DNA of 27,343 nucleotides, from IMG/VR virus record IMGVR_UViG_3300034236_000027, positions 1 to 27,343 of that record; one strand, written 5' to 3'. The notes under the pieces are model-generated. The model made no database searches. It had not been told where the DNA came from and saw only the letters and a program-made list of their open reading frames with translations. The position numbers and the translations under genes are program-made. Shown piece after piece: positions 1,004 through 17,041 of this stretch; position 1 is the first letter of the stretch; every line of letters begins with the position of its first letter. The DNA is from a virus.

Positions 1004-1203
1004 GTAGCCGTTCTCGTCTGCGGGATCCGGCAGACATTCAGGGCTACGCTCGAGGGTAGACGTTAATAGCTACGCGGGATCTCTGCGCGGCTGAGCTTGC
1101 CCGCGCGGGCCGGCGCAGTTGCTTTTGGCTGCGAGGTGATCGCTCGCAGACGGAAGCGTCTACCAGGACCTCGTAGCTGTGAATGTCTGCGCGGCCAGGT
1201 TAC
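1004..1203 (+). repeat. structured dispersed repeat, copy 1
   Basis: Bases 1043-1203 match the reverse complement of 16826-16986 with about 7 differences in 161 (two in the first 122). The element has internal dyad symmetry. CAGACATTCA (1031-1040) pairs with TGAATGTCTG (1180-1189), GCTACG (1043-1048) with CGTAGC (1172-1177), and GGTAGACG (1055-1062) with CGTCTACC (1157-1164). The centre includes the palindrome GCCCGCGCGGGC (1099-1110). A satellite hairpin (GTCTGC...GCAGAC, 1016-1035) sits at its left. GTCCGATAA (952-960) and TTATCGGAC (1217-1225) form a 9-bp inverted repeat outside it. No gene is visible in 951-1267; this element fills most of that gap. Confidence 0.85.
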
Positions 1204-1267
1204 TGAAGGGATGAGCTTATCGGACCCCTCGGAGACTAAAAAAAATCAAGAATTATGAAAATAATGT

Positions 1268-1296
1268 TTGACAAGTGTATTACATCATTGTATACT
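1268..1296 (+). promoter_or_regulatory. sigma70-type promoter
   Basis: TTGACA (1268-1273) and TATACT (1291-1296) are separated by exactly 17 bases, close to the textbook consensus, in a locally AT-rich patch. The gene starting at 1336 lies about 40 bases downstream. An imperfect dyad (TACA-TCAT-TGTA) lies in the spacer and could be an operator, but this is weak. Confidence 0.75.
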
Positions 1297-1335
1297 CCTG
1301 ACTGTTAGACGAGATTGAAAAAGGAGATTAAAACG

Positions 1336-1701
1336 ATGACAAGCACGAAACTTACAGCGATGGAGATTCAAGAAATGATAGTAGGTAGCTTTGTTGATGC
1401 GGGCGATTACATTAATTTCATCCAGTCTGACGATAACAACGCGCCGGACTGGCAGCGCGTTAATCAAGTCGAGATTGAGGGCGACGTTGAATACGACCAA
1501 GCTATTGCTCGCATTAAGGAGAGCTTCAAGCAAGCTTCGCTGGCGAGAATGGAAGCTGACATCAAGGGCTATGTGTTCGACCAGGACGACACTTGCCTGC
1601 CTCTGTTTCGCTATGCTTCGCAAGAAGAGATAGAGACGATGGCTGAAATGAACTACGATCAAGCCCGCGAAGAAATCGAACAGAACGGGACGCTTTTTTA
1701 A
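1336..1701 (+). CDS. hypothetical acidic protein, 121 aa
   Basis: The frame is open from a TTG at 1315, but the ATG at 1336 has AAGGAG about ten bases upstream and is preferred. It is the first gene after the strong promoter at 1268-1296, so it probably begins an early transcript. The product is acidic and appears largely helical (for example IARIKESFKQASLARMEADI). No enzymatic motif or known family is recognised. Strong promoter plus strong ribosome site suggests high expression early after infection; its role is unknown. Confidence 0.65.
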   Translation: MTSTKLTAMEIQEMIVGSFVDAGDYINFIQSDDNNAPDWQRVNQVEIEGDVEYDQAIARIKESFKQASLARMEADIKGYVFDQDDTCLPLFRYASQEEIETMAEMNYDQAREEIEQNGTLF

Positions 1702-1781
1702 TCGAACCAACGAGGGTCGCAATCGGCCCTCAGTGGAATGACGGCCAGAGCAGCATTACGCGCCTGAGCCAAAAGGAGGAG

Positions 1782-1994
1782 ATGAAGGCGATGACAACTG
1801 AAAGAACAGTGAACAGAAATCGGAACAATGGCGCGCAGGCAAATCTCGTCAAGGCCGTCAAGGAACTCGGGCACCTGGCAAGTCCGCACTATTTGAAGGA
1901 GCTTGGTTACACGGAACAGGAAATCGAAAAGGCTGTCAGAGATGGTCAGCTCGAATGGCGCGGGGATGGCAACTTGAACATCAAAGAAGATTGA
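1782..1994 (+). CDS. small hypothetical protein, 70 aa
   Basis: A strong AAGGAGG lies at 1773-1779. It is two bases from the ATG at 1782 and eleven from the ATG at 1791, so the true start may be the second (67 aa). The C-terminal part (SPHYLKELGYTEQEIEKAV followed by GQLEWRGDGNL) looks like a compact helix-turn-helix or winged-helix-like fold, with short helices followed by a beta hairpin. That is inference from pattern only. The stop abuts the next gene. It probably belongs to the same transcript as the gene at 1336. Confidence 0.6.
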   Translation: MKAMTTERTVNRNRNNGAQANLVKAVKELGHLASPHYLKELGYTEQEIEKAVRDGQLEWRGDGNLNIKED

Positions 1995-2003
1995 GTGGAA
2001 TAC

Positions 2004-2183
2004 ATGAAATCAAAACTTACGCCCGTTGAGCGCCACGCCGAAACAGAGAGGGTCAAGCAGTTTCTCGACCTGTTTGCGGCTGGCAGTTTCCATGTCGGCA
2101 GGCTTCTTACCGTTGACGACATATCTTTGCTAACCGCTGTGGCGCTGCGCCTGCAAAGGGAGCAGGCAGAGGAGGGCGAGTAA
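2004..2183 (+). CDS. small hypothetical protein, 59 aa
   Basis: The frame opens with a GTG at 1995 directly after the preceding stop. The ATG at 2004 has GAGTGGA nearby and is the more likely start. The product is a short helical protein (MKSKLTPVERHAETERVKQF...) with a central hydrophobic stretch (DISLLTAVALRLQRE). No family is recognised. Its stop overlaps the following ATG (TAATG), so it is coupled to the putative DNA-binding protein downstream. Confidence 0.55.
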   Translation: MKSKLTPVERHAETERVKQFLDLFAAGSFHVGRLLTVDDISLLTAVALRLQREQAEEGE

Positions 2184-2383
2184 TGCCAGCCAAGCAGGAA
2201 GATGCGGCGGAATTGAGGCCGACTTCGGTCAGACTGTCGGACCATACGCGAGCGTTGCTCGCCGCGCTCGGCAAGAAGTACGGCTCGCAGGGAGTGGCTG
2301 TTACGCTTGCCCTAGAGTTGCTCGCGCGCGAACCATATCGCAATGACGTAGATAAGCTAAACGGCAATCCCCGGAAGCGATGA
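2183..2383 (+). CDS. putative ribbon-helix-helix DNA-binding protein, 66 aa
   Basis: The ATG overlaps the preceding stop and has GGAGG seven bases upstream. Residues about 12-50 fit the ribbon-helix-helix (CopG/Arc-like) plan. There is a short strand with alternating residues (RPTSVRLS), a first helix (DHTRALLAALGKKYG), a turn, and a second helix (SQGVAVTLALELLARE). Proteins of this family bind DNA as dimers through the strand and often repress their own operon. Size and basic C-terminus agree. The assignment is from pattern, not alignment. A likely target would be the promoter near 1268, but no binding site is demonstrated. Confidence 0.5.
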   Translation: MPAKQEDAAELRPTSVRLSDHTRALLAALGKKYGSQGVAVTLALELLAREPYRNDVDKLNGNPRKR

Positions 2384-2393
2384 GAGGTGTACG

Positions 2394-2645
2394 ATGCTCA
2401 AAAACATTGCTTTGGTCGTGATGATGATATGCGTCGTCGTCATGCTTTTGCATTCGCGGTCCTCTGGCAACTTGCAGGCAGAGAATGAAGGCTTGAGAGA
2501 CAAGGTTGCGCTGCTTGAAGCTAAGGCCCGCGACTGCGACAGCTATCTTGCAAACGCGATGGCTGCGCAAGCTGCTTTCGATTCCGAGAAGCAGAGGCTA
2601 GAGCGCGAGATAGAGAGGCTGAAGAGGGAGAAAGGGGAGAGGTAA
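2394..2645 (+). CDS. membrane-anchored coiled-coil protein, 83 aa
   Basis: The first 20 residues (NIALVVMMICVVVMLLHSR) form one membrane segment. The rest, about residues 28-83, is a charged coiled coil with heptad-like spacing (ENEGLRDKVALLEAKARD and EKQRLEREIERLKREKGER). The ATG has AGAGGTG upstream. This layout matches inner-membrane spanins (Rz-type), but such layouts are common and no lysis gene is adjacent, so the lysis role is only one possibility. It could also be an early membrane protein, for example one acting in exclusion. Confidence 0.6.
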   Translation: MLKNIALVVMMICVVVMLLHSRSSGNLQAENEGLRDKVALLEAKARDCDSYLANAMAAQAAFDSEKQRLEREIERLKREKGER

Positions 2646-2651
2646 GCAGCT

Positions 2652-3017
2652 ATGACTAGAGAGTCGATTGAACGCTCACAAGAGCTACTCGAATCGTTCG
2701 CACGAAGTTATGGGTTGCCGGTATCGGTCGGCTACTTCCCGCCGTCTCACGCGCAGGCTATCAACTACAACGAGCGCACAATTCAATTCACAGATGACAG
2801 CTTTTCCATGTGCGGAATTTATGATCAAGGGAAGATAGTCGCCGTCGTCGAATTCTTGAAGAATTTCTGCACCTGTAATCAGCACGACTGCGACCACAGG
2901 CAGGACGCCATCGGCGCAGCCTTCACCCTGATTCAGGCACATCAGAAGTTCAACGCCGCAGAGTGGGATCGCCGCCGTGTTGAGGCCGCGATTGATTCGG
3001 GGAAAGGGTTGTTATGA
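2652..3017 (+). CDS. hypothetical Cys/His-containing protein, 121 aa
   Basis: A GAGAGG ribosome site precedes the ATG at 2652. The N-terminal part is helical, the middle beta-rich (residues about 20-75), and a cluster of possible metal ligands (CTCNQHDCDH) lies near residues 75-84. This is followed by a helix ending in Lys/Arg-rich sequence. No family is recognised. The Cys/His cluster suggests zinc binding, which is inference. The stop overlaps the next start (ATGA), so the two genes are coupled. Confidence 0.6.
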   Translation: MTRESIERSQELLESFARSYGLPVSVGYFPPSHAQAINYNERTIQFTDDSFSMCGIYDQGKIVAVVEFLKNFCTCNQHDCDHRQDAIGAAFTLIQAHQKFNAAEWDRRRVEAAIDSGKGLL

Positions 3018-3208
3018 AGTATCTAGCTATGATCGGAGCAGCCGCCCGTGACCGCATGGCCGCCTATTATGCCGTGACCGAGGCGACCACCCGCAAATGT
3101 GTGGCCGCCCGCAACTGTATGACCGCCCGCGACCGAGTGACCTGTTCCCACCGTATGACCGCCTGCGACCGTTCTACCGCCTTGTACAGTGTGTCCTGCT
3201 CTACCTGA
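3014..3208 (+). CDS. hexapeptide-repeat small protein, 64 aa
   Basis: The ATG overlaps the preceding stop, and AAAGGG lies five bases upstream. From about residue 13 onward the sequence is a degenerate tandem repeat of six residues (units such as KCVAAR, NCMTAR, DRVTCS, HRMTAC). It is written by an 18-bp DNA repeat across roughly 3050-3202, with one three-residue insertion. The product has five Cys and many Arg residues. The minus strand of the same DNA is also open and reads as GGHTVA-type repeats. Whether the plus-strand protein is functional is uncertain; coupling to its neighbour is the main support. Confidence 0.4.
   Translation: MKYLAMIGAAARDRMAAYYAVTEATTRKCVAARNCMTARDRVTCSHRMTACDRSTALYSVSCST
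3050..3202. repeat. degenerate 18-bp tandem repeat
   Basis: About eight copies of a motif around TGTATGACCGCCCGCGAC recur at 18-bp spacing, with a 9-bp insertion after the second unit. Because 18 is a multiple of three, the repeat keeps frames open on both strands. Confidence 0.7.
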
Positions 3209-3256
3209 ATATGTATGTCCCATAGTGGCGAAACTGTAGCATAGGGAGGGCTTGCG

Positions 3257-3476
3257 ATGAAAGGCTCAGAACTTATCAAGCTGATTCAGGCTGAAATAGA
3301 CGCCTTTGAGCAGCCGACCAACAGGAATTATCCGCACCTTGCCCTCGCTCTACGGTGATGCCTCTGTCGGCGCGATAATGGGATTGGAAAGGAGTAAACC
3401 AGGGCCAAAGCCTAAGCGAGCGAAGAAAAGGGGTGACAGTATACCAGAACAATTGTTTCTGAGTTGGAGGTGTTAA
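3257..3476 (+). pseudogene. frame-broken small phage gene
   Basis: An ATG at 3257 with a very strong ribosome site (GGGAGGG, six bases away) opens a 33-codon frame (MKGSELIKLIQAEIDAFEQ...) ending at 3358. In the +1 frame, from about 3348 to a stop at 3474-3476, reading continues as LYGDASVGAIMGLERSKPG, followed by a basic tail. The two halves read like one protein of roughly 73 residues split by a one-base change near 3345-3350. No slippery sequence is evident, so a mutation or sequencing error is more likely than programmed frameshifting. The function is unknown. Confidence 0.45.
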
Positions 3477-3479
3477 AAA

Positions 3480-3776
3480 ATGAGAGACCAATTGGAAAAA
3501 GCAGATTCACTGCTCAGCCAAACGCAGGACTTAATTCGGAAGTCCATAGCGACGACAGGTCGGTTTGAGCTACTCGAAAACGCAAAGGAAGTTGTGGAAA
3601 TCGAGTGGCACGACCGAACTGAAACGCCACCGTGCGGCTTAATTTGGGCCAGTGATGGTTATGGCCTGTGGACGCTTCGCTCTGATGGAAAGCCGATTCC
3701 AGAAACGGCTACGGCAGTTAAGTTTTGGGCGGTCGCGTTAATCCCGAAACCGCCATTAATTGAAGCGAGAAAGTAA
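3480..3776 (+). CDS. hypothetical protein, 98 aa
   Basis: GGAGG lies nine bases before the ATG. The N-terminal 30 residues look like an amphipathic or coiled helix (DQLEKADSLLSQTQDLIRKS). The remainder is beta-rich with many Trp residues (EWHDRTETPPCGLIWASDGYGLWTL is split here as EWHDRTETPPCG and LIWASDGYGLW). No family is recognised. A 17-base motif (GGGTGACAGTATACCAG) occurs upstream of this gene, and a one-mismatch copy precedes the next one. Confidence 0.6.
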   Translation: MRDQLEKADSLLSQTQDLIRKSIATTGRFELLENAKEVVEIEWHDRTETPPCGLIWASDGYGLWTLRSDGKPIPETATAVKFWAVALIPKPPLIEARK

Positions 3777-3821
3777 AGGTGTGGGTGACAGTATGCCAGT
3801 CATGGAGGAGGCTAGGAAGCG

Positions 3822-4235
3822 ATGAAGACTGAAGAACTCGAAAAAGAATTCGAGCGATTGAAGCTCGAGAATCCGATCCTGCGCGCCGCGCTTATGCTTC
3901 ACAGGCGCGGTGACTGCTCGCTTGAAAATGCGCTCAAGTACGCGGTCGTATATCTCGCCAAAGAGAGCGCGGTATATAAAAACTCGGTGTTTCGGGCTCT
4001 TACGACATCGCGAGTGCCGCTTGATTTTGCTGACGGTCTTTCGCTGAGCGTGGATGCACCGCTCAGCGATGAGAGTGCGTGCTTCTTAGAGTCACTATTG
4101 CCGCGACTCCCCTTATACTGTCCGAAGTGTAAGCATCAGAGTCTCAATGATACCTGGCGGCGTTCCGGGGATGGTTGGCACTGTAGCCATTGTGGTCATC
4201 TGCTTGACGAAGCCGAAGCCGACAGATGTCACTGA
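3822..4235 (+). CDS. hypothetical protein with C-terminal zinc ribbon, 137 aa
   Basis: Start at an ATG with GGAGGAGG and AGGAAG just upstream. The N-terminal region (residues 1-25) is a charged helix (EELEKEFERLKLEN). The middle is helical. The C-terminal 40 residues contain two CxxC knuckles, CPKC and CSHC, about 25 residues apart with HCGH at the end: a classic zinc ribbon. Zinc ribbons in small phage proteins often bind nucleic acid or RNA polymerase, but the partner here is unknown. The ribbon is visible directly; the rest is not assigned. Confidence 0.65.
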   Translation: MKTEELEKEFERLKLENPILRAALMLHRRGDCSLENALKYAVVYLAKESAVYKNSVFRALTTSRVPLDFADGLSLSVDAPLSDESACFLESLLPRLPLYCPKCKHQSLNDTWRRSGDGWHCSHCGHLLDEAEADRCH

Positions 4236-4254
4236 CTAAAGATTTAAGGTTAAG

Positions 4255-4644
4255 ATGAAATTCAAAGACAGCGTATCTATAAACATCGACGGCGACGAGC
4301 TTGAGGACGAATCAACCCTCGACTCATACCGCGACCGCGCACTTATGGAGTCAATCGCTGAGATAGAGCGTCGTCGTCCCGATATGGCACAGCAACGCTC
4401 TGTAATTCACATCGCGGGCGAATACATAGGCGGCCAGCAGCGATGCGTGAGATGCTCGCGCGTGCTGATTGATAACAGGCATATTCAGATCATCGACGGC
4501 ACGCGCGTGGCTATCTTCACGCGCGGTACAGATGTAGCCGAAGTGGCAGGCGGCTTCTGCTTCAGGAGCGGTCACGAATTGCGCGAAAACGAAGTTCCAT
4601 GCTCGGATCAAAGCTCTGAAATTGAAATGATAATCAGGCAATAA
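4255..4644 (+). CDS. hypothetical protein with CxxC motif, 129 aa
   Basis: The ATG is preceded by AAGGTTAAG. The first 40 residues are acidic and probably helical (DGDELEDESTLDSYRDR...). A central CVRC, with further Cys residues at the C-terminal side (GGFC, VPCS), suggests a metal-binding fold spanning about residues 62-120. No family is recognised. It sits 19 bases after the zinc-ribbon gene and probably shares its transcript. A 325-base stretch without a supported gene follows. Confidence 0.6.
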   Translation: MKFKDSVSINIDGDELEDESTLDSYRDRALMESIAEIERRRPDMAQQRSVIHIAGEYIGGQQRCVRCSRVLIDNRHIQIIDGTRVAIFTRGTDVAEVAGGFCFRSGHELRENEVPCSDQSSEIEMIIRQ

Positions 4645-4968
4645 GAACGAAAAAGTTCGCCCGGCGTCAACTTTTTTCTTTAACTGCCATCGCTTTATTG
4701 AACAGTAATTTACAATCGCGACGATTCGCTCGCACAGCACGCCTCGTAAATCCCACCTATTGCGCAGCCATTTTTCTTATGCTATATGCGTTTACTGTCA
4801 GGCCCCAAAGCATCAACCTGATAAAACGGCGACGAGCAAGGGTAACAAAAGCTGAATACGGTTCTCCCCGACAGGGTAGACAGGCAACGCCACTGCCTGT
4901 CGTGAGATTATGGCCCGCATTCAGCATAACTGTCTCTTGACCTACAAGAGATCGCGACGACGACATCT
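4645..4968. other. non-coding stretch with nested inverted repeats
   Basis: No supported gene. A TTG-initiated frame (4698-4940) lacks a ribosome site and has unnatural composition. The stretch contains GCTGAAT (4851-4857) pairing with ATTCAGC (4919-4925). Inside that, GACAGGCA (4879-4886) pairs perfectly with TGCCTGTC (4894-4901) across a seven-base loop. There is no T-tract, so this is not a standard terminator. Confidence 0.45.
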
Positions 4969-5343
4969 TTGAAAGAACAAAAAAAAGCAAACCGCTTTCA
5001 GCGTCGCCAGGCCGCGCGGATAAGCGCGCGCGCAAGGAAGAGCAGACATGCAGGTCCCGAGATGATGAGCGCCCGAGAGGTAGAGATGCGGGCGGCGAAT
5101 CAAGCCCGCGTGAAAGAGAGCAGGGATAGCCGCGAAGTGATTGAGATTCGCAGGCACGGCCCGCGCGTATCGGAAAACTCGCGCATCCTTGAGCGTCAGA
5201 TGATTTTCGCAGGCCCGCACACGGGCGGCGCGGTCTTAGATCAGTTGATCAGGAGCAATGAGCCCTGCTTCTCGTATGAGGCGGAGGGTGAGAACGGGCG
5301 CAGGTACAGGCGTGAGATTTACCGCGCGACCGTGAAGAGATAA
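4969..5343 (+). CDS. basic hypothetical protein, up to 124 aa
   Basis: The frame opens with TTG at 4969 without a clear ribosome site. ATGs at 5061/5064 have an AGG-containing site upstream and may be the real start (about 93 aa). The N-terminal part is extremely Arg/Lys rich (QRRQAARISARARKSR). The C-terminal part is better structured (RILERQMIFAGPHTGGAVLDQ...). No family is recognised. The basic composition suggests nucleic-acid binding, which is inference. It is the last gene before the structured region and the terminase genes. Confidence 0.45.
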   Translation: MKEQKKANRFQRRQAARISARARKSRHAGPEMMSAREVEMRAANQARVKESRDSREVIEIRRHGPRVSENSRILERQMIFAGPHTGGAVLDQLIRSNEPCFSYEAEGENGRRYRREIYRATVKR

Positions 5344-5350
5344 AAAGAAT

Positions 5351-5568
5351 CGCGGGGGAGACGGGCGGCCAGGTCAGTCTCCCCCGCGCACGATTGAACG
5401 ACACTTACATCGGAAACAAATAGACGACCGGGCAAGTCGTTCAACCATGACCCGGTCGCTGGCCTCGCGGGGCGATGAAGTCTTCCGGCTTTGTCGCCCC
5501 GTTTGACGCGCTCAGAGATAGCAATTTGCGCCACACAAGTCAAGCGGCTTTTGTCCTGGGCGCTCAAA
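5351..5568 (+). promoter_or_regulatory. hairpin-rich region before the terminase; candidate packaging site or structured RNA
   Basis: Several stems follow one another. A 12-bp perfect stem (CGCGGGGGAGAC 5351-5362, GTCTCCCCCGCG 5377-5388). TTGAACGAC (5394-5402) with GTCGTTCAA (5436-5444), which interlocks with GACCGGG (5426-5432) and CCCGGTC (5451-5457). CGGGGCGA (5468-5475) with TCGCCCCG (5494-5501). A bulged TTTGA/TCAAA stem joins 5502-5511 and 5560-5568. The first stem could end the upstream transcript, though no T-tract follows. The position just before terS is where pac or cos sites often lie, which is inference. Confidence 0.55.
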
Positions 5569-5590
5569 TAATTTAAGCGTCGTCTAGACT

Positions 5591-5624
5591 AACCCCATGC
5601 ACGATTCATAACCCCATGCACGAT
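5591..5624 (+). repeat. 15-bp direct repeat overlapping the terS start
   Basis: AACCCCATGCACGAT occurs at 5591-5605 and again at 5610-5624, a period of 19 bases. Each copy carries an ATG. The first opens only a four-codon frame; the second is the presumed terS start. No SD motif is present. Confidence 0.75.
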
Positions 5625-6377
5625 AAAAAAAAGCAGCGTGAGATCGCGGACCCCGAAGGGGTGCGATACCGGGTAATGACGCGCGGCGGCAAGGAGTGGC
5701 TTCAGCGGCTCTGCGACGCGAGGGACAACACCTGCGGGCGGCTCGCGATGGCGCATTCGCCGAAGTGCAGGCAGGACGGCGGCGCGACGCCGCGCGGGGC
5801 CGCGTCGGTTCACACGAAGACAGGCGAGCACTCTAAGGATTTCCAGACCCGCTTTCGCAAGCGGGCGGAAGAGTTCTTAGCGAACCGTGACGGCAAAGAG
5901 CTTGCCCGCGCGATTGCTTATGCTACGACGCTCGTAGAGGATGCCGTCGAGCGCGTAGACAGCTTCGAATCAGGCGCGGCGTGGCTTGCAGCGCAAGATG
6001 CGATGAACAGGAATGATCGCTGGTCGGCTAAGAAGATAAACCCCGGCGACGAGGCGGCGCGCGCAGAGCAGCTCGCAGAAGTGGAGCGAGCGTCGGACGA
6101 TTTGAGGCGGGCGATCAAGCAGGGCGTTGCGGAGCATCACTCGAAAGAAGAGCTTAGGAAGCACGTCGAGTTTCAGACGAAGCTCGTCGAGCGCGAGACA
6201 GGCATCGAGGTCAAGACGGGGATGATGGTCGCCTTTCAAGAGCTTATCGCCGCGAGCAATCGCACGTATGACATTTTGATGAAGTATGTCGAGCCTTCCA
6301 AACGAGCAGACCTACTCGACGAACTTTCAGGCATGGTGGCTCCAGCGGCTCAGAGATCGTTTATCGCGGGACATTGA
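5616..6377 (+). CDS. terS: putative terminase small subunit, 253 aa
   Basis: It lies directly before, and overlaps, the large terminase gene by 92 bases. Near residues 52-75 the sequence (GGATPRGAASVHTKTGEHSK) resembles the Gly/Pro/Asn-rich motif common near the start of phage small-terminase-like proteins. After it come mostly helical regions with coiled-coil character (about 75-250). Small terminases bind the packaging site and stimulate the large subunit's ATPase. The ATG at 5616 has no ribosome site and lies inside a direct repeat, so the start is uncertain. Length is somewhat greater than many TerS proteins. The assignment rests on position and motif, not on alignment. Confidence 0.55.
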   Translation: MHDKKKQREIADPEGVRYRVMTRGGKEWLQRLCDARDNTCGRLAMAHSPKCRQDGGATPRGAASVHTKTGEHSKDFQTRFRKRAEEFLANRDGKELARAIAYATTLVEDAVERVDSFESGAAWLAAQDAMNRNDRWSAKKINPGDEAARAEQLAEVERASDDLRRAIKQGVAEHHSKEELRKHVEFQTKLVERETGIEVKTGMMVAFQELIAASNRTYDILMKYVEPSKRADLLDELSGMVAPAAQRSFIAGH

Positions 6378-7845: not shown

Positions 7846-7846
7846 C

Positions 7847-9385
7847 TTGAACTCAAAGCCAAGACCTAAATTAGCGGAGCGCGTCATTCGCCGGCTCTTC
7901 GGCTCTTACATTGATTCGCAGGTCACAGCTCAAGTAGAGGAGCGTCTGTCCAGGCAGGCAGTCTCGTACGGCTCTGACCCCGATGCGGGCGATGGCTTCC
8001 GCTCTATCGCTACGACACGCCGGGATCTGACGCCTGTAGATCAAGACAAGCTCATTAACATCGCGAGCTACCTCGCGAACGCGAACCCCCTCGCCTCGCG
8101 CATCAGGAAGCTGAACAGGGATTTCGTCATCGGCGACGGCATAACGATAGAGGCTGACGATAAAGAGACGATTCAGCCCATCATAGACCAGTTCTGGAAA
8201 GACCCGCTCAACAATTTCGACGAGTTTCAATTCGACGTAGTCGATTATCTTTCAATCTACGGTGAGCTAATCCTGCCTACTTTCGTAAACCCGTTCAACG
8301 GCAAGACCGTTGTCGGATGGGTTGACCCCGTAGAGGTTGATCGCGTGCTGCCCGATGCGACGAATCGCCGAATCATGCGCCGCGTGCTTATGAAGTACGG
8401 CGCGTCTGCGGGCGCGAGCGACCTCGTCACGGTCGAGAGCAAGCGCCTCGTCTACGACATAGCGAACGTAGTCACGGACCCGAACGATAAGGCATACGGC
8501 TACCGCAAGGGCAACGTCTTACATTTCAAGATCAACTGCGCGCCTGACGCGCGGCGTGGGCGCTCTGATTATGAAAGCCTGATTGATTACCTCGATATAC
8601 TCGACCAGTCGATGTGGAACGACCTTGAGCGCGTACAGATGCTCCTCAAGTTCGTCTGGGATGTAACCGTTGATAAGGCGACGCCGGAAGACGTGGAGAA
8701 ATTCGTCAAGGCCGCCAAACTAGATAAAGAGCCGCCGCCTGGCGCTGTGCGCTATCACAACAAGGCGGTCGAGTTTAAGGCCGTGACGCCTGAGCTTAGG
8801 ACGCAAGAGACCTGCAAGCTTGCAGACTCGACGCGAAAGTTCGTCATCGGCGCGGCGGGATTTTCGGACTTCTTCATCGGCTACACGGAGGGCGCGAACC
8901 GCGCCTCGTCAGATAACCTCGATAAGCCCATCCTGCAATCGCTTCAATCCAGGCAACGGAAGGTCCGCGCGATGTTTCGAGAGCTTATAGACTACGCCAT
9001 AGACCAGCGCGCGCTATCCGCTGCGGGCCGCAGTCTGAAGCTAGGGCTTGAGACGGGCCGCATCTCGCGTAACTTCACAATCTCAATGCCGGAGCTTCAC
9101 GTCAAAGACTTGAGCAAGGTAGGCAACATGATCGCGCAGCTTGGCTCCGCGCTCGACCTTGCGGTTGAGAAAGGATGGCTGAGCAATGAGACAGCGCAGA
9201 CCGTCTTTGTGTCTCTCTTGCCTCAGTTCGGCCTTGAGCAGGTGAAGATAGACGAGGAGCTGAAGAGGATCGAAGCCGAGACGGCAGACAGGGAAGCTGC
9301 GGAGACCGAGAAGGCTAAGGCTAAGGAGAAGTCACTTGCCGATAAGTTAGACGGTGAAGAGAGCGACGACGAAATGGTCGCCTGA
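7847..9385 (+). CDS. portal protein, 512 aa
   Basis: The dodecameric ring at the capsid vertex through which DNA passes. Position directly after terL, the length of 512 aa, and segments such as NANPLASRIRKLNRDFVIGD, FWKDPLNNFDEFQFDVVDYL and the later FDEL-like helices are typical of phage portals. The start is a TTG with GAGAGG about eight bases upstream; no better start is close. Residues 338-353 (GFSDFFIGYTEGANRA) are nearly repeated in the small protein encoded at 10455. The C-terminus (after about 470) is charged and Glu/Lys rich, as in many portals. Only one base separates it from terL. Confidence 0.85.
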   Translation: MNSKPRPKLAERVIRRLFGSYIDSQVTAQVEERLSRQAVSYGSDPDAGDGFRSIATTRRDLTPVDQDKLINIASYLANANPLASRIRKLNRDFVIGDGITIEADDKETIQPIIDQFWKDPLNNFDEFQFDVVDYLSIYGELILPTFVNPFNGKTVVGWVDPVEVDRVLPDATNRRIMRRVLMKYGASAGASDLVTVESKRLVYDIANVVTDPNDKAYGYRKGNVLHFKINCAPDARRGRSDYESLIDYLDILDQSMWNDLERVQMLLKFVWDVTVDKATPEDVEKFVKAAKLDKEPPPGAVRYHNKAVEFKAVTPELRTQETCKLADSTRKFVIGAAGFSDFFIGYTEGANRASSDNLDKPILQSLQSRQRKVRAMFRELIDYAIDQRALSAAGRSLKLGLETGRISRNFTISMPELHVKDLSKVGNMIAQLGSALDLAVEKGWLSNETAQTVFVSLLPQFGLEQVKIDEELKRIEAETADREAAETEKAKAKEKSLADKLDGEESDDEMVA

Positions 9386-9392
9386 GGTAATC

Positions 9393-9566: not shown

Positions 9567-9569
9567 TGT

Positions 9570-10454: not shown

Positions 10455-10928
10455 ATGGATTTCTTTCTTTTATGGATCGTCGGTCTACTCGTTACTGCTC
10501 TGGTCGCTTACGCTTTGCGGGGAAGCACTTCAAGCGTTCCGATTATCCCGAATATGTCACCTGTGCCGAGACCGACCGTTAAGCCTGTAGCTACAGATAC
10601 TACAAGGCGCTCGCCAGGTTTCTCTGACTTCTTTCTCGGCTACACGGAGGGCGCAAACCGCGCGTGTGGCTATTGCGGGCGCGAAGGTGGAAACAAAGCA
10701 ACATGTGACGGATGCGGAGCGCCCCTGAGAATGCCGCCGGAGGCATTAAATGGGCAGATGGAATCAAGGCAGAAACAAGCTGCGCGCGATCACGCAGCCG
10801 CTCAGAGACTACTTCTGCGCATACGCAGGCTCGAAGGGAAAGCCAGCCGCCGTGCCGTGCAAGGTACAGGGAGCAAGCGCAGAGCACGCCGCGAGAATGT
10901 TCGACATGGGGCAGGGGCGCAACCCTGA
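10455..10928 (+). CDS. small membrane protein with portal-like peptide and zinc ribbon, 157 aa
   Basis: Residues 1-22 (MDFFLLWIVGLLVTALVAYA) form one membrane segment. A Pro-rich linker follows. Residues 55-70 (GFSDFFLGYTEGANRA) nearly copy residues 338-353 of the portal. A zinc ribbon comes next (CGYCGREGGNKATCDGCGAP, about 71-90). After about residue 98 the frame overlaps the next gene, and its Arg-rich sequence looks like out-of-frame reading, so the true C-terminus may be a by-product of overlap or a past frameshift. The start follows directly on the MuF stop. The function is unknown; the shared peptide suggests it touches the same partner as the portal. Confidence 0.55.
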   Translation: MDFFLLWIVGLLVTALVAYALRGSTSSVPIIPNMSPVPRPTVKPVATDTTRRSPGFSDFFLGYTEGANRACGYCGREGGNKATCDGCGAPLRMPPEALNGQMESRQKQAARDHAAAQRLLLRIRRLEGKASRRAVQGTGSKRRARRENVRHGAGAQP

Positions 10929-11073: not shown

Positions 11074-11108
11074 GTATCCTGGAACTTCCCATTATAAGAT
11101 AACTAACA
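11069..11108. repeat. imperfect ~40-bp direct repeat, copy 1
   Basis: This stretch begins TGTAGGTA and ends GATAACT plus an A-rich tail. It matches 11308-11347 at roughly three quarters of positions with one gap. The two copies flank a small gene, each lying just after a stop codon. It may be a promoter-like or regulatory site, or the trace of a cassette duplication. Confidence 0.4.
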
Positions 11109-11121
11109 AGGGTTGATTCTT

Positions 11122-11295
11122 ATGGATGAAATCAAGGAAACGGTCGAATACCTCAAGCGGCGCATAATAGAAGAGCGGACCAAACCGGGAGTGAATACCG
11201 AGGACCTTCACTCTTTGGTCAAAGACATCTGCTACGATTTACTTAATACTGCGCGCGTGGAGGATCTGGGCGGTTGCCCTCTATGTCAGTCGTAA
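11122..11295 (+). CDS. small hypothetical protein, 57 aa
   Basis: The frame opens with TTG at 11113, but the ATG at 11122 has AAGGG nine bases upstream. The product is a helical acidic protein (MDEIKETVEYLKRRIIEERT...) ending in a CPLC motif (LGGCPLCQS), which may bind metal or form disulfides. No family is recognised. It is bracketed by imperfect direct repeats and followed by a 719-base region without a supported gene. Confidence 0.5.
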   Translation: MDEIKETVEYLKRRIIEERTKPGVNTEDLHSLVKDICYDLLNTARVEDLGGCPLCQS

Positions 11296-11307
11296 TGCTA
11301 CGTTAAA

Positions 11308-11347
11308 TGTAGGTACCTCGAAATTCCTGTCATACGATAACTGATAA
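11308..11347. repeat. imperfect ~40-bp direct repeat, copy 2
   Basis: Second copy of the repeat at 11069-11108. It starts TGTAGGTA and contains TTCC and GATAACT at matching places. It lies at the left end of the non-coding leader before the capsid genes. Confidence 0.4.
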
Positions 11348-11379
11348 ATCGGTATTGCATTAAAGATTTTTTATCTAGC

Positions 11380-11870
11380 GAAGACGATAAAAACTAAGGC
11401 TGACGACGAGGGCGCATCCCTGGCGATTGCGCCTTTCGCGGGCATAATATGCGCAACAAAGGCGCGCTCGTTTCAAGTGGCTTATTCGTCTTGCGCCTAA
11501 CCCGGATAGAGCGAGGTATCCTTCGGGATTGAACGACGACGACGCATGCCGGATGGGGGCTATTATCCCCCGGCCAGCGACCCGGCGACCGGATGCTCCC
11601 TTCGTGGAGTCAATTTTCATTCAATGCCGGGCAACCTAATCTGCCATGCGGCTCCTGATTCATGTCTCGCTCACGATCAGAACTTCACGAAGGGAGGTAC
11701 ACGTCGATGAAGTTTGAATAACGACATTGCCGCAACGCATAACGGGGTTCTCTGTGAAGAACGGGGGGATGGGCAACCATCCCTCATATATTGTTCCTTT
11801 GCTGCTAATAATATTAGCCATCAAAGACAATGGAATATTAAATGGAATATTTTCAGGATAATATCCCACG
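11380..11870 (+). promoter_or_regulatory. long structured leader before the capsid operon
   Basis: No convincing gene is present between 11296 and 12014. Instead there are many short stems. They include GGCGCA/TGCGCC near 11411-11433, a UUCG-capped ATCC/GGAT stem near 11518-11529, and GGGGG/CCCCC around 11555-11571. There is also a CTCC/GGAG stem near 11595-11608 and a perfect GGGATGG/CCATCCC hairpin with a GCAA loop near 11766-11783. A palindromic AT-rich patch (GCTAATAATATTAGC, GGATAATATCC) follows at 11800-11867. The region leads into two terminators, so it may be an attenuator leader or contain a non-coding RNA. Confidence 0.5.
11691..11721 (+). promoter_or_regulatory. strong ribosome site with four-codon ORF (possible leader peptide)
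   Basis: AGGGAGGT (11691-11698) is followed nine bases after GGAGG by ATG AAG TTT GAA TAA (11707-11721), encoding MKFE. It lies upstream of two tandem terminators. A longer overlapping frame (TTG 11714 to 11920) runs into a terminator stem and is unlikely to be a gene. This may be a leader peptide controlling readthrough, or the remnant of a broken gene. Confidence 0.35.
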
Positions 11871-11880
11871 AGTTTGCCAC

Positions 11881-11910
11881 GCCCGCTGACTTCGGTTGGC
11901 GGGCTTTTCC
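11881..11910 (+). terminator. intrinsic terminator 1 of a tandem pair
   Basis: GCCCGCTGAC and GTTGGCGGGC (11881-11904) form a 10-bp stem, including two G-T pairs, closed by a TTCG tetraloop. TTTTCC follows. Sequence after the stem (TATTGGATAGCA) resembles that after terminator 2. Confidence 0.8.
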
Positions 11911-11946
11911 TATTGGATAGCAAATCTGTAGATCCTCCTCCGGTTT

Positions 11947-11982
11947 GCCCGCCGCACCTGCTCTCGCGGCGGGCCTTTTTTT
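11947..11982 (+). terminator. intrinsic terminator 2 of a tandem pair
   Basis: GCCCGCCGC (11947-11955) and GCGGCGGGC (11966-11974) form a perfect 9-bp stem with a 10-base loop, followed by C and seven T residues. The capsid-operon ribosome site begins about 20 bases later, leaving no obvious room for a separate promoter. Confidence 0.85.
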
Positions 11983-12014
11983 ATTGATAGCACTTTTCAA
12001 CAGGAGGGAAGCAA

Positions 12015-12236
12015 ATGGCCGAAGCAAAGAAGAGAACGCTCACAGTACCGGAGCAAGAGTCGAGGGGCGATCAAATCGCTCTGCTTGCAAAGAAGTATAA
12101 GAGCCTCGCGGGGCTGCCTGACAGCCACGTTCACACGCGCTCAAAGGACGGCAAGACCGTGCTGCTACTCGACGGCACGAGGGTAACAGACGAGATCCTG
12201 AAGACAGCCGCGAAGCCTGAAAAGGAAGAGAAGTAA
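12015..12236 (+). CDS. small hypothetical protein, 73 aa
   Basis: A strong AGGAGGG precedes the ATG, directly after the tandem terminators. The product is Lys-rich with a short beta-like middle (DGKTVLLLDGTRVTDEILK). No family is recognised. Being first in the capsid operon, it may be a head-assembly helper, but this is from position only. The same operon continues with the protease/capsid polyprotein 65 bases downstream. Confidence 0.6.
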   Translation: MAEAKKRTLTVPEQESRGDQIALLAKKYKSLAGLPDSHVHTRSKDGKTVLLLDGTRVTDEILKTAAKPEKEEK

Positions 12237-12301
12237 GCCCGAAGCAGTAAGCCCCGATCAATAACACTCACACGGCGAGCGCGTCTCGCGTGGGGATTTC
12301 T

Positions 12302-14845
12302 ATGCTCATAATTCACATCAAACAGGCGGGCATTAACCTGTCCGAGATCATCAAGCTCGTCTGCAATGCCGTGTGTGAGCAGTTCAAGCTCGCAAACGGC
12401 TACGACCATATTTATTACTGGCCCGACGAGATCTTCGACGATGCGGTCATAGTCAAGAGCCGCATTGACGGCAAGCTGTACCGCCTGGGCTACACGATCA
12501 CAGAGAAGACGGTCACCTTCGGGGAGGCCGTCGAGGTAGAAGAGAAATTCGTGCCCGTAGAGGCAGGCGGCCAGGTTGCGACAGAAGGCGATGCGATGCA
12601 GGTCTATCGCGTCGCGGAAGACGCGCAAGAGACCGAGCAGGAAGCGAGCATCGCGTTCACGGTCGGCCAGGCGCAGAAGGTAGACCCGAAGGGAATGCAG
12701 TGGCGATGCCAGGTCATCGGGTTCGGGATGTCTAAGACCCGCGACATCTGGGAGGCACCCATCTTCCGCCAGTCGCTGCCGCAGTGGGAGAACATCCCCT
12801 GCTACATAGATCACCCTTCAGAGTCAGAGATGCGCGACCTGCCCGAGCGGTCCGTCCAGAAGAAGTGCGGCTTCTGGTCTAACTTCGAGGTCACAGCGCA
12901 GGGCGTGAGCGCGACGCTCACGATAGCCCCGTCGTTCGCCTGGCTTGGCGAAAACCTCCTGTGGGCTCAGCAGCACAATCAGCCCGATTTCGCGGGCTTC
13001 TCAATCATAGCGCAGACCCGCGCGAAGCAAGTCACCGCCCCGGACAATCAACCAGCCCGTTTGCACACGCAGATCGTAAGACCGCTCTCCGTTGACGTGG
13101 TCACGCAGGCTGCCGCAGACGGGCATCTACAAGTCGCCCTTGCATCGAATCGCGGGCGAGACAACGAGGACAACATGAACAAAGAGTTACTAAGGTTGCT
13201 GTTTAACAACCCTCAGACCTTTGCCTTCGTGCGTCAGTCTCTCGCCGCAGATGGCGTGCAGGGAGTGACCGCGCAGACGACGGAAGACCAGCTCGTAAAC
13301 ATCGTAGTCGCAGACCAGAAACACGTTGATGCTGTCGGCACGCTCCTGAAGGTCGCGCAAGCGGCGGCGAGCATCTTCGCTCCGCCGGCGCAATCGCCCG
13401 TCGCTCAGGCTCAGCAGGCACCCGCTCCCGGCACGGCACCGGCTGCGGCTCCTACGATTGACGACATGCCCGTAGAGATTCAGCGCACTGTCATATCGCA
13501 AGCGATTAACGATTCGTCTGCGGGCGAAGCGGTCAAGCAGACATGGCGCGCGCGCTTCCTCAATCCGGTTACACCCGTGAAGGCCACAGTCGCGCAGGCG
13601 GCCATTCAGAGCGAGACCGAGCTGCTCGGCGTCTACGCGCAGGCAGGCATCGTGAACAACCCCTCGCGCGCCGAAGTAGGAACCGAGCAGGTAGACCGGT
13701 TCGCAATTGCTCTCGCAAAGTCATTCGATATTTCCTTCGAGGCGTTCAACTCTATTGCTGGCTGCCAGGATCAGGTCGTGCAGCAGAGCAACGGAAGATT
13801 TTTCCAGGCTGCGCAGGATGAATGGAACTCGATACCGAAGATCGTCTCGATCCGCGATTTCTATTCGCAAACGACAGGTGATGTGAACCTGCGTGGCGTT
13901 GCGCGTGGCTCTCGCCTTGCGCGGCAGGCCGTATGGGTAACCGCAGACTTTGCCGAGGCGCTCGCTAACGTCGTCAACAAGCGCCTTCTCATGGTCTACC
14001 GTGAAGAGTCGTACCCCTATGATTTGATATGCAAGATAGTGCCAGCCCGCGACTTCAAGCAGCGTCAGGCAATCCTGATGGGCTATTTCGCGGACCTTCC
14101 GGCGGTCGCCGAAAACGGCCCGTACCTTTCGCCTTCTGCTCTCACGGACACCAAAGAGGCTTATTCAATAAGCAAAAAAGGTCGTCTGGTTGAATTGACC
14201 CTTGAAGACCTCGCGAATGACGATCTTGCAGGTTTTTCGACCGTCGTTGCTCGCCTGGGCCGCACGGCGAAGCGCACGCTTGCGAAGTTCGTCTTCAACG
14301 ACCTCGTAATGTCGAACCCGACGATGGCGACAGATTCGCTCGCCGTCTTTCATACCTCGCACAACAACCTGATCACAGATACGCTCGGCACGACGGGCTT
14401 GAAGAATGGCGTCGGCGCGCTCCTCTCGCAGACCGAGCCTGGCTCAAACGAGAAGATGTCTGTCTCGGTCGATAAGCTTCAGCTCTTCATCTCTCCCACG
14501 TCCTATGTTGACGCGCATGCCGTGACCGACTTCAACAACGCGGGCGGCGGCGAGACGAACGCTACTGCGCAAGCGATCCGCCGCATGCGGATCACTCCGC
14601 ACTCGATCAACGTATTCGAAGACGATAACGACTGGCTGTTGACAGCCTCTAATGCGGATGTGGACATGGTCGAGCTTGCCTTCTTCAACGGCAACGAAGA
14701 GCCGGAATTCTTTGTCCAAGATGATCCGCGCGAGGGCGTGTCGTTTTCGAATGATGTGATCTTGCGGCATAAGATCCGGCACATTTACGGCGGCGTCGTC
14801 GTCGATTATCGCGGGATGGTCAAGAGTGCTGTTGTTGACGAGTAA
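12302..14845 (+). CDS. prohead protease / scaffold / major capsid fusion, 847 aa
   Basis: One long frame with three parts. Residues 1-90 form an N-terminal domain (DDAVIVKSRIDGKLYRLGYT) seen in phage head proteases. Residues about 120-290 are a Mu gpI-like serine protease, with candidate catalytic His171 (CYIDHPSE) and Ser234 (FAGFSIIAQ). Residues about 290-430 are Ala/Gln/Pro-rich, as expected of a scaffold. From about 470 to the end it resembles the Mu-like major head subunit (VPARDFKQRQAILMGYF, LTLEDLANDDLAGFSTVVAR, VFHTSHNNLI). The protease should cut the scaffold during maturation. The frame also opens at GTG 12290, but the ATG at 12302 has GGGGA nearby. An in-frame ATG at 13175 with GAGGA upstream could make scaffold-capsid alone (556 aa). 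Confidence 0.85.
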   Translation: MLIIHIKQAGINLSEIIKLVCNAVCEQFKLANGYDHIYYWPDEIFDDAVIVKSRIDGKLYRLGYTITEKTVTFGEAVEVEEKFVPVEAGGQVATEGDAMQVYRVAEDAQETEQEASIAFTVGQAQKVDPKGMQWRCQVIGFGMSKTRDIWEAPIFRQSLPQWENIPCYIDHPSESEMRDLPERSVQKKCGFWSNFEVTAQGVSATLTIAPSFAWLGENLLWAQQHNQPDFAGFSIIAQTRAKQVTAPDNQPARLHTQIVRPLSVDVVTQAAADGHLQVALASNRGRDNEDNMNKELLRLLFNNPQTFAFVRQSLAADGVQGVTAQTTEDQLVNIVVADQKHVDAVGTLLKVAQAAASIFAPPAQSPVAQAQQAPAPGTAPAAAPTIDDMPVEIQRTVISQAINDSSAGEAVKQTWRARFLNPVTPVKATVAQAAIQSETELLGVYAQAGIVNNPSRAEVGTEQVDRFAIALAKSFDISFEAFNSIAGCQDQVVQQSNGRFFQAAQDEWNSIPKIVSIRDFYSQTTGDVNLRGVARGSRLARQAVWVTADFAEALANVVNKRLLMVYREESYPYDLICKIVPARDFKQRQAILMGYFADLPAVAENGPYLSPSALTDTKEAYSISKKGRLVELTLEDLANDDLAGFSTVVARLGRTAKRTLAKFVFNDLVMSNPTMATDSLAVFHTSHNNLITDTLGTTGLKNGVGALLSQTEPGSNEKMSVSVDKLQLFISPTSYVDAHAVTDFNNAGGGETNATAQAIRRMRITPHSINVFEDDNDWLLTASNADVDMVELAFFNGNEEPEFFVQDDPREGVSFSNDVILRHKIRHIYGGVVVDYRGMVKSAVVDE

Positions 14846-14878
14846 TCAGCCCTGACGATTCACGAATAGCAGACAGAC

Positions 14879-14911
14879 CGAGGGCGGGCCGCGTGCCCGC
14901 CCTCGCCTTTT
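14879..14911 (+). terminator. intrinsic terminator after the major capsid gene
   Basis: CGAGGGCGGGC (14879-14889) and GCCCGCCCTCG (14895-14905) form a perfect 11-bp stem with a five-base loop, followed by CCTTTTC. It lies 34 bases after the capsid stop and 14 bases before the next gene, so it probably lowers downstream expression relative to capsid. Confidence 0.8.
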
Positions 14912-14924
14912 CAGGAGAAAGAAT

Positions 14925-15971
14925 ATGAAATTGAAAAGATTCAATACCGTGATGGTCGGGGCTGTCGTCGCCGCGCTGCTCTGGCTCCCTTTGCTTTCGC
15001 TTGCGCCCGCAAGCGTCTACGCGCAGACTGCTAAGAACGTGCAGGTCGCCTTCGCGTCTGCGGCGCGAACAGCATCGGCGAACTCAAGCCCGTTCAGCGT
15101 TGGTGACGCAGACCATCTCGTCGCGTTCCTTTCTGTCACCGCAGGCACAGGGACGACGCCGACGCTCGACGTGAAAGCCCAGGACTCGCCCGACGGCGGC
15201 ACGACATGGTTTGACCTCACGGGCATGAGCTTCGCGCAGGTGACAGGCTCTACGTCGTCTCAGACGGTCTACGCGACCCGCACCTTCTCGCCAAAGATCA
15301 GGTTCGTGGCTACCATAGGCGGCACGACTCCGAGCTTCACCTTCTCTGTCCACTTCATAAGCTACAAAGGCAACCCTATTGTCGTCGCGACCTCGGACGC
15401 GAACGCATCGAACCTCACATCAGGAACGATACCGCTCGCGCGGATCGTAGACCTGACGAATACCCAGGTCTCTGGCTCGGCGGCTATAGCATACAGCAAG
15501 CTCTCGCTGACCGGCTCTATAGTGAACGCAGACCTGTCAAGCTCTGCGGCGATAGCGAGCGGGAAGCTTGCCGAAGACGTTGCGCGAACAGCTTCAGTCA
15601 CGATCCCGACCGCCCAGGTTCTGACGCTCAACGCCACGCCGCGCACGCTCGTGGCCGCTCCGGGCGCGGGCAAGATCACCCTGATAGATGAGATCACCTG
15701 CAAGCTTGTCTTCAACTCGGTTGCCTACACGGGCTCGAACGCGCTTGAGTTCAGGTACACGAACGGAAGCGGCGCGAAGGTGACAGCAGATATAAGCTCC
15801 TCTTTCCTGAATTCGGCGTCAGGCACAAACTACAGCAGCGTGAAGGGCGTAACGACTGCGCTCACGCCTGTAGCTAACGCCGCCGTCGTCGTCTTCGTGC
15901 CCACCGCTGACCCAGGCGCGGGAAACTCCGATCTGGTCTTCACGATTAAATATCGAATCATCACACCTTAG
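14925..15971 (+). CDS. exported, decoration-like virion protein with signal peptide, 348 aa
   Basis: AGGAG lies seven bases before the ATG. Residues 1-34 form a clear signal peptide: basic start (MKLKRF), hydrophobic core (VGAVVAALLWLPLLSL), then a cleavage-type end VYA before Gln-Thr. The mature part reads like phage surface domains. Residues about 38-150 resemble decoration-type beta domains (TLDVKAQDSPDGGTTWFDLT). Residues about 165-220 carry fibre-like Ser/Ala repeats (GSAAIAYSKLSLTGSIVNAD). Residues about 225-348 are another beta domain (LNATPRTLVAAPGAGK). A head decoration or fibre role is inferred from position after the capsid gene. A signal peptide on a virion protein assembled in the cytoplasm is unexpected. 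Confidence 0.65.
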   Translation: MKLKRFNTVMVGAVVAALLWLPLLSLAPASVYAQTAKNVQVAFASAARTASANSSPFSVGDADHLVAFLSVTAGTGTTPTLDVKAQDSPDGGTTWFDLTGMSFAQVTGSTSSQTVYATRTFSPKIRFVATIGGTTPSFTFSVHFISYKGNPIVVATSDANASNLTSGTIPLARIVDLTNTQVSGSAAIAYSKLSLTGSIVNADLSSSAAIASGKLAEDVARTASVTIPTAQVLTLNATPRTLVAAPGAGKITLIDEITCKLVFNSVAYTGSNALEFRYTNGSGAKVTADISSSFLNSASGTNYSSVKGVTTALTPVANAAVVVFVPTADPGAGNSDLVFTIKYRIITP

Positions 15972-15992
15972 ACCTGACGCGCCGCCTTCCGT

Positions 15993-16063
15993 GCCCGCAG
16001 TCAACGGCCAGGGCATCCCACTGCGGGCAACCGCTTGTATCGGTCGCTCTGGCCGTTGATGCC
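15993..16063 (+). promoter_or_regulatory. overlapping alternative RNA stems
   Basis: GCCCGCAG (15993-16000) pairs with CTGCGGGC (16021-16028), and TCAACGGCCAG (16001-16011) pairs with CTGGCCGTTGA (16049-16059). The arms interleave in the order A1, B1, A2, B2, so the stems are either a pseudoknot or, with no linker between A1 and B1, mutually exclusive. They lie just before the ribosome site of the next gene. Confidence 0.65.
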
Positions 16064-16079
16064 TTAGAGAGCAGAAGCG

Positions 16080-16823
16080 ATGGCAATATCAACTAGAAAA
16101 AAGTCTGACTTCGTCGAATATGTTTCGCACCGACTCATCAGGGACGGCTCACCGGACTCGCCTGGCGTGCTACAGCCGCCGGATTATGACGACGCGGTCG
16201 ATGCTGCCCTTGAGCAGTACTCTAAAGACAACCCGCTTGAATTCGTGAAAGATATTGATGGCGAAGCAGGCGGGCTTCGCGTCGTCGCCGTGAGCGACCT
16301 GCCCGGCTTCGATGAAGACTTCTCAGGTGACCCGCGCATCGAGATCATAGATAACGCGAGCGGCGATGTCATTACCGAGATAGATGTCCGTTATTGGAGG
16401 TATCGCCGGACGCCCGCCGGGCAGACCGTCGAGTTGCTAGAAGACTCTGCGGGCAGCGGTCAATCGCTGCGCTACACCTACAAGATCAAGCGCGTTATTG
16501 ACGAATCCGACCCCGATCTTACGACCGTCCCCGATTCGGACTTCTATGCCTTCTGCAATCTCGCAGCATCGAAGGCAGCGCGGTATCTCGCGAACCATTA
16601 CAAGCACACCCGCGAAGGCAGTTATATGCAGGGTGACGTGGTCTACTTCCGCACTAAGGCGTCAGAGTTTGAGAAGGCAGAGAAAGATCACAAGAATGAG
16701 TACAACAATCACATGGGGATAGGTAAAGACGTTGAGGCGTCAGCCGCCGTCGTCATCGTCAATCAGGATTTGAGCGATTCCCGAGGTATGGATCGCTTCA
16801 CTCACGGGCGGCGGTTTCGTTGA
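16080..16823 (+). CDS. putative head-tail connector / adaptor protein, 247 aa
   Basis: The position after capsid genes, the length, and the pattern fit a phage neck adaptor: an N-terminal helical segment (SDFVEYVSHRLIRDGSPDSP, then DYDDAVDAALEQYSKDNP), a beta-rich middle, and a C-terminal helical bundle (FYAFCNLAASKAARYLANHY, TKASEFEKAEKDHKNEY). Such proteins sit under the portal and form the first ring of the neck. I cannot name the exact family. The ATG follows a GAGAGCAGAAG purine tract. The stop is followed at once by the second copy of the dispersed structured repeat. Confidence 0.5.
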   Translation: MAISTRKKSDFVEYVSHRLIRDGSPDSPGVLQPPDYDDAVDAALEQYSKDNPLEFVKDIDGEAGGLRVVAVSDLPGFDEDFSGDPRIEIIDNASGDVITEIDVRYWRYRRTPAGQTVELLEDSAGSGQSLRYTYKIKRVIDESDPDLTTVPDSDFYAFCNLAASKAARYLANHYKHTREGSYMQGDVVYFRTKASEFEKAEKDHKNEYNNHMGIGKDVEASAAVVIVNQDLSDSRGMDRFTHGRRFR

Positions 16824-16825
16824 GC

Positions 16826-17025
16826 GTTACCTGGGTGCGCAGACATTCACAGCTACGAAGTACTGGTAGACGCTTCCGTCTGCGAGCGATCACCTCGCAG
16901 CCAAAAGCAACTGCGCAGGCCCGCGCGGGCAAGCTCAGCCGCGTAGAGATCCCGCGTAGCTATTAACGTCTACCCTCGAGCGTAGCCGTTCTCGTCTGCC
17001 GGATCCGCAGACCAGAACGTCTACC
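16826..17025 (-). repeat. structured dispersed repeat, copy 2 (inverted)
   Basis: Bases 16826-16986 are the reverse complement of 1043-1203 at about 96% identity. Internal pairing is kept: GCTACG (16852-16857) with CGTAGC (16981-16986), and GGTAGACG (16865-16872) with CGTCTACC (16967-16974). At its right, 16982-17023 forms an extended hairpin (CGTTCT-c-GTCTGC ... GCAGAC-c-AGAACG). The left part of this satellite (GTAGCCGTTCTCGTCTGC) appears in the same, not inverted, orientation beside copy 1. The element fills the gap between two structural genes without disrupting either. Confidence 0.85.
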
Positions 17026-17041
17026 TCGTCGATCAATAAGA

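Follow-up and report, generated by a model that had tools for sequence, protein, structure and literature searches.

Palindromic repeats that move without a gene of their own are a kind of element known in bacteria, and here one apparently moves inside a phage. In repetitive extragenic palindromes (REPs) with a GTAG tag, the tag degenerates to GYAG or GYRG, the units form clusters close to the 3′ ends of genes, and those inside open reading frames (ORFs) usually code for 20-30 residues; for REP-like palindromes that lack a linked transposase, such as the CGTC REPs, the mode of movement is still unexplained (PMC3733652). Rickettsia palindromic elements (RPEs) insert in frame in genes (PMC10969869). 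Among phages, MPME1 is a mobile element of 439 bp that has an inverted repeat on its left side (IR-L) and brings an addition of 6 bp when it inserts (PMC3029335), and the Corndog-group (Cluster O) phages carry 34 dispersed 17-bp dyads, about one third of them inside genes, which are thought to bind a dimeric protein (PMC4351075). The DNA analysed here is a viral stretch of 27,343 nucleotides (IMG/VR record IMGVR_UViG_3300034236_000027, positions 1-27,343; hereafter the window), in which a cluster of GYAG-tagged palindromes occurs twice in inverted orientation, as copies A and B. These two, and two more in other parts of the same phage genome (C, and the diverged D), probably represent a small mobile DNA element of the non-autonomous kind, which in its best reading resembles the GTAG-tagged REP clusters and RPEs, but in a virus.

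Four copies in one phage genome

The window is part of a phage with a circular map of 62.9 kb (IMGVR_UViG_3300034005_000004; hereafter G003), whose contig of 62,962 bases matches it identically along the whole window. The ends of the G003 contig overlap by 63 bases within copy A and their junction is spanned by the window, giving a phage genome circle of 62,899 bp.

The two near-identical inverted copies of the original prediction were confirmed by inverted-repeat search and by blastn, with seven differences counted on the alignment between 1043-1203 and the other copy (two within the first 122 positions). The 161-bp match is thus real, but the true extents are larger. Copy A spans 1004-1203 (+ strand; 200 bp), between ORF 663-950 and the gene at 1336-1701, and copy B spans 16826-17042 (- strand; 217 bp), where it fills the gap between the gene at 16080-16823 (gene 21) and that at 17042-17548 (gene 22). 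Both fall between called genes, in agreement with the claim that neither is coding. The repeat arms at 1023-1203 and 16826-17006 are 181 nt long and 93% complementary, and blastn aligned 1004-1203 with 17024-16826 at 92.5% identity.

Beyond the two copies first described, copy C is also intergenic and lies outside the window (G003 40807-41026), in direct orientation relative to A, occupying the space that separates a Dam-like methyltransferase gene from the next, divergent gene; copy D is diverged and intragenic. Copy C is 96.5% identical to A (core ~99%), against 92.5% between A and B. An extension of ~18 bp (TTCTTATTGATCGACGAG) at one end is common to B and C and absent from A, while the flanks of the three copies are otherwise unrelated. 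The copies are found in both orientations, and their orientation relative to their genes is not constant.

Copies A and B are both present, in the same orientation, in the window and in G003, and two further contigs (G001 and G002) span copy B at 99.99-100% identity, so that B is bridged in four assemblies. Because the copies are bridged in several assemblies, an assembly artefact, the weak point named in the original prediction, is excluded and the inverted repeat is real. At B and C no skew extreme was found when replication origins were considered, and the cumulative skew is without a clear switch at A. The idea of Dam/GATC clusters was rejected, as the 3-4 GATC sites per copy are not outstanding within the phage genome. 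Directly before copy A, the last codons of ORF 663-950 hold a perfect 15-bp stem (901-944; GCGAATACCCTGCAA/TTGCAGGGTATTCGC), and a consensus-like sigma-70 promoter (TTGACA-N17-TATACT; ~1267-1296) lies between copy A and the gene at 1336-1701.

Palindrome arrays within the copies

In each copy about seven 18-bp dyads follow one another; they have the form G[CT]AG-N10-CT[AG]C, one being GCGG..CCGC, with a 7-4-7 architecture, gaps of 7-13 bp between dyads and a palindromic spacing. On the + strand of copy A, the dyads are s1 (1004-1021; GTAGCCGTTCTCGTCTGC), s2 (1030-1047; GCAGACATTCAGGGCTAC), s3 (1056-1073; GTAGACGTTAATAGCTAC), s4 (1087-1104; GCGGCTGAGCTTGCCCGC, with the relaxed tag GYRG), s5 (1115-1132; GCAGTTGCTTTTGGCTGC), s6 (1146-1163; GCAGACGGAAGCGTCTAC) and s7 (1173-1190; GTAGCTGTGAATGTCTGC). 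The central GCCCGCGCGGGC palindrome that had been predicted is present at 1099-1110. From s2 to s7 of A the start distances are 26, 31, 28, 31 and 27, which are nearly equal read either way. The seven dyads of B (16839-17024, - strand) have plus-strand starts at 16839, 16866, 16897, 16925, 16956, 16982 and 17007.

Dyads of this type far exceed expectation: 28 strict dyads were counted in the phage, where 200 dinucleotide-preserving shuffles average 4.4, and its 15 triple dyad clusters have no counterpart in any of the shuffles. Masking A, B and C left one cluster, the four dyads of copy D (G003 40469-40588). A relaxed dyad definition added no cluster, and the clusters are confined to A, B, C and D.

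Some adjacent dyads also pair with each other as single-stranded DNA. The s1-s2 hairpin of B, formed by its last two dyads on the plus strand (starts 16982 and 17007), is near-perfect (z -6.5), that of s5-s6, 15 bp long, has a single mismatch and leaves its GCAG/CTAC ends unpaired (z -3.1), and that of D2-D3 has a z of -2.8; a strong stem-loop beside an unpaired tag is seen in these three, the other adjacent pairs not being significant. Dyad s2 of B is the exact reverse complement of dyad s1 of A, whereas in A and C dyad s2 agrees instead with the reverse-complemented s7, at 16 of 18 positions. Mutation by template switching between the arms of quasipalindromes is known (PMC7202029), and such switching could account for the s2 patterns both of B and of A and C. 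Elsewhere in the phage, three strong adjacent hairpins (G003 ~44230-44400; -110 kcal/mol over 211 nt) sit in a gap where rightward genes end facing leftward genes.

Two other repeats were encountered. A 67-bp repeat, 85% identical and inverted (CATGTCCCATAGTGGCGARACTRTAGCATAGGGAGG...TTGCGATGAAAG; window 3200-3263 and G003 51549-51615), lies directly upstream of two start codons and is possibly a shared translation-start or promoter region. A 55-bp direct repeat, 84% identical, connects the portal gene (window 8850-8904) with ORF 10455-10928 (10609-10663) and encodes FSDFF(I/L)GYTEGANRA, as though a piece of the portal gene had been copied.

Ends of copy B and an apparent in-frame insertion at copy D

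Exactly at the ends of copy B, which are defined by homology with A and C, stands a 5-bp direct repeat, TGAGC. It is a candidate target-site duplication, of which the left member (16821-16825, + strand) shares bases with the gene 21 stop codon and the right member (17043-17047, + strand) lies within the start of gene 22 (ATGAGC). At fixed ends such a repeat has a chance of 0.0017. Removal of the 222-bp unit leaves a TTGA overlap, shared by the gene 21 stop codon and a TTG start for gene 22; with B in place the final base of the element turns the gene 22 start into ATG. In a relative, Microcystis phage Mae-JY22, the homologue of gene 21 overlaps the next gene by 4 bp, GTGA. Gene 21 was matched at the nucleotide level in no other phage and the closest terminase relatives are at ~48% identity, so no empty site can be read at the nucleotide level.

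Copy D lies inside the coding sequence of the Dam-like methyltransferase gene (G003 40013-40765, - strand; outside the window), which is related to Upf31.0 of IncP plasmids and whose start was set to MNYPGSKNGMG after alignment. Compared with those relatives, from plasmids, Klebsiella phage and IMG/VR, whose sequences span this region, the methyltransferase has ~19-27 (mostly ~26) extra residues. These fall between the IDxD-like and GDAI-like motifs and coincide with the dyads of D; they were aligned within a variable stretch, which fixes the ends of the insertion only approximately. From this alignment, D has apparently been inserted in frame within the gene. An 8-bp direct repeat (CGCAGCCG) flanks a 102-bp interval within D and is a weak sign of insertion because it is also a half-site. 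An AlphaFold model (predicted local distance difference test (pLDDT), 51; below 50 in the insertion region) was uninformative.

Several lines of evidence argue for a mobile element: the three near-identical copies with unrelated flanks in both orientations; the dyad clusters, confined to four loci and far beyond shuffles; the coincidence of D with ~26 extra residues; the direct repeat at the ends of B, together with the TTGA left on excision and the GTGA of Mae-JY22; and the tag and stem-loop form of the s5-s6 unit. Published GTAG REPs moreover share the tag degeneracy, the clustering, the 3′-end position and the ORF inserts of 20-30 residues. Among the three candidates raised in the original prediction, a miniature inverted-repeat transposable element (MITE)-like element without its own transposase is therefore the best supported, with the qualification that its terminal inverted repeats are missing. 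Being geneless, the element would depend for its copying on illegitimate recombination or on an enzyme that the host or another element provides in trans. It would be tolerated where harm is small, that is, in intergenic gaps or in frame in a permissive protein loop. Through its palindromes a single strand could fold back on itself, and the arms are probably kept alike by template switching from one palindrome to another.

Other results weigh against mobility. The direct repeat is found at the ends of B only, A and C being without one, and over three copies with some slack its chance rises to ~0.015 by our own estimate. In Mae-JY22 the homologue of gene 21 is followed by a gene homologous to gene 24, not to gene 22. 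Terminal inverted repeats are lacking, as the inward-read ends TTCTTATTG and GTTACCTGG do not match, and among the adjacent pairs tested in C the hairpin is significant in s5-s6 only. Neither a Y1 transposase (PF01797) nor a tyrosine or serine recombinase was found in a six-frame family search of the phage, and Pfam and PHROG scans of most of its other proteins revealed no transposase, integrase or resolvase; the families listed (25 of 28 in the Pfam scan) comprise methyltransferases, a helicase, a replication initiator, regulators and structural genes. With none found by these searches, one has to suppose that the element relies on an enzyme supplied in trans or on rare recombination. Movement between genomes is likewise not seen, because no homologous copy was present in any collection searched. 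Phage and plasmid records gave chance matches only (13-15% query coverage), the core patterns were found in IMG/VR in this phage only, and one exact core pattern was absent from GTDB genomes. The dyad-array pattern in phages and bacteria hit mostly tandem repeats that are not homologous, and BLAST of the element against 396 genomes (phylum of G004) and 369 genomes (class of G008) gave chance-level matches. The search for copies in other phages and bacteria that the original prediction had proposed thus returned no homologue outside this phage.

Palindromes similar in kind did appear elsewhere. In some bacteria, dyads that share the half-site are frequent; an Acidobacteriota metagenome-assembled genome (G004), for example, carries 55 GYAGACG-N4-CGTCTRC palindromes against 2 in the control. 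Many of these are tandem, at 24, 27 or 47 bp, and locus L105 1535-1633 belongs to this genome. In a Mu-like viral contig (L068 942-1013), an intergenic tandem of three 18-bp palindromes, GCAGACCTGTGTGTCTGC, resembles repeats of several bacterial genomes. In both cases the likeness to the phage dyads is one of kind. Integron attC was also considered and set aside, as its recombination-site consensus was not seen in the element.

Other explanations and relation to known systems

The arrays might instead be putative cis-acting sites for a dimeric DNA-binding protein acting in regulation, partition, replication or packaging, kept alike by function and gene conversion as in the 17-bp dyads of the Corndog group; we regard this as possible but rather doubtful. 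The consensus of the 24 half-sites of C and D, which are not independent since units may share ancestry, is GYAGHYR. GYRG begins all 24 of them and GYAG 22, the sites having been selected by this motif, while position 6 is a pyrimidine in 24 of 24 and position 7 a purine in 23 of 24, neither position having been used for site selection. The two arms within a dyad are no more similar than randomly paired arms (P 0.58). The half-site is thus conserved as sequence, not by pairing, and this pattern, the 7-4-7 architecture, the repeated spacing and the Corndog precedent of sites partly inside genes all suit protein binding. The sites are, however, packed in four mosaic clusters and not dispersed, the half-sites are degenerate and not invariant, the spacings do not follow a helical repeat, one cluster (D) coincides with a protein insertion, and no ParA/ParB-like partner is among the families listed.

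A structured RNA that is mobile or repeated, be it a ribozyme, a terminator or a regulatory RNA, was another of the earlier candidates and is quite unlikely. Whole copies do fold better than shuffles on the corresponding strand (z -3.9 for A and -3.6 for B), but the opposite strand folds too, and in a fold z-scan the copies are not unique, ordinary terminators elsewhere in the phage genome scoring alike. Rfam gave no match in the window at the gathering threshold, and only chance matches, mostly to eukaryotic families, at a permissive threshold at the loci of C and B. A, B and C differ in orientation to their genes, and no covariation is seen between the two arms of a dyad; half-sites conserved as sequence with arms lacking covariation make a generic structured RNA unlikely.

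It is very improbable that A and B, near-identical inverted copies flanking the 15.8-kb packaging/capsid module, are paired sites for its programmed inversion, as had been proposed for a 16-kb isomer, given that no recombinase of the two common families (tyrosine and serine) was found in the phage, that both assemblies spanning A and B show a single orientation, and that C is directly oriented to A, so that recombination would also delete.

For the mobile element, a wider reading can be put forward tentatively: it might spread within phage genomes without its own enzyme and add in-frame protein segments, as a viral counterpart of REPs and RPEs. If this were true, its copying would be open to study in a fast, small genetic system, and if the insertion at D is read correctly, phage proteins can gain peptide segments from palindromic repeats. 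A phage with four copies, an apparent in-frame insertion and a candidate target-site duplication would offer a small system in which to catch copying between related phages.

Among the known systems, Corndog dyads share with the element the 7-bp inverted half-sites, the short spacer, the many copies and the partly intragenic location; their arms are invariant and their sites dispersed, whereas in this phage the arms are degenerate and the sites crowd into arrays, the arrays in turn being repeated. Transposons of the DDE type give rise to MITEs with terminal inverted repeats, which are absent here, and a target-site duplication, for which the 5-bp repeat of B is the sole candidate. MPME1 encodes a small protein. 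The element has no gene, is 200-220 bp in size instead of ~440 bp and is without the inverted repeats at its ends. It would be like MPME1/2 of mycobacteriophages in being an ultra-small mobile element at differing sites in phage genomes (PMC3029335). The bacterial 18-bp palindromes of the G004 type have the same half-site and dyad length, but their units are near-identical and often tandem, and the mosaic phage element itself was not found there. REPs are units of 20-40 bp in high copy with an associated REP-associated tyrosine transposase (RAYT; a Y1 transposase), whereas the units here are 43-49 bp, partly without a strong hairpin and in four clusters only, with no RAYT within the phage; by copy number, unit size and RAYT link the element is therefore not filed as a REP. 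With GTAG REPs it nonetheless shares the GYAG/GYRG tag, the clustered palindromic units, the position next to gene ends and the occurrence, for some, in frame within ORFs. From RPEs it differs in host, copy number and kind of genome, with D as the single intragenic case; it is like them (PMC10969869) in being ~150 bp, palindromic and without its own enzyme, and in lying both between genes and in frame within them, a likeness of form.

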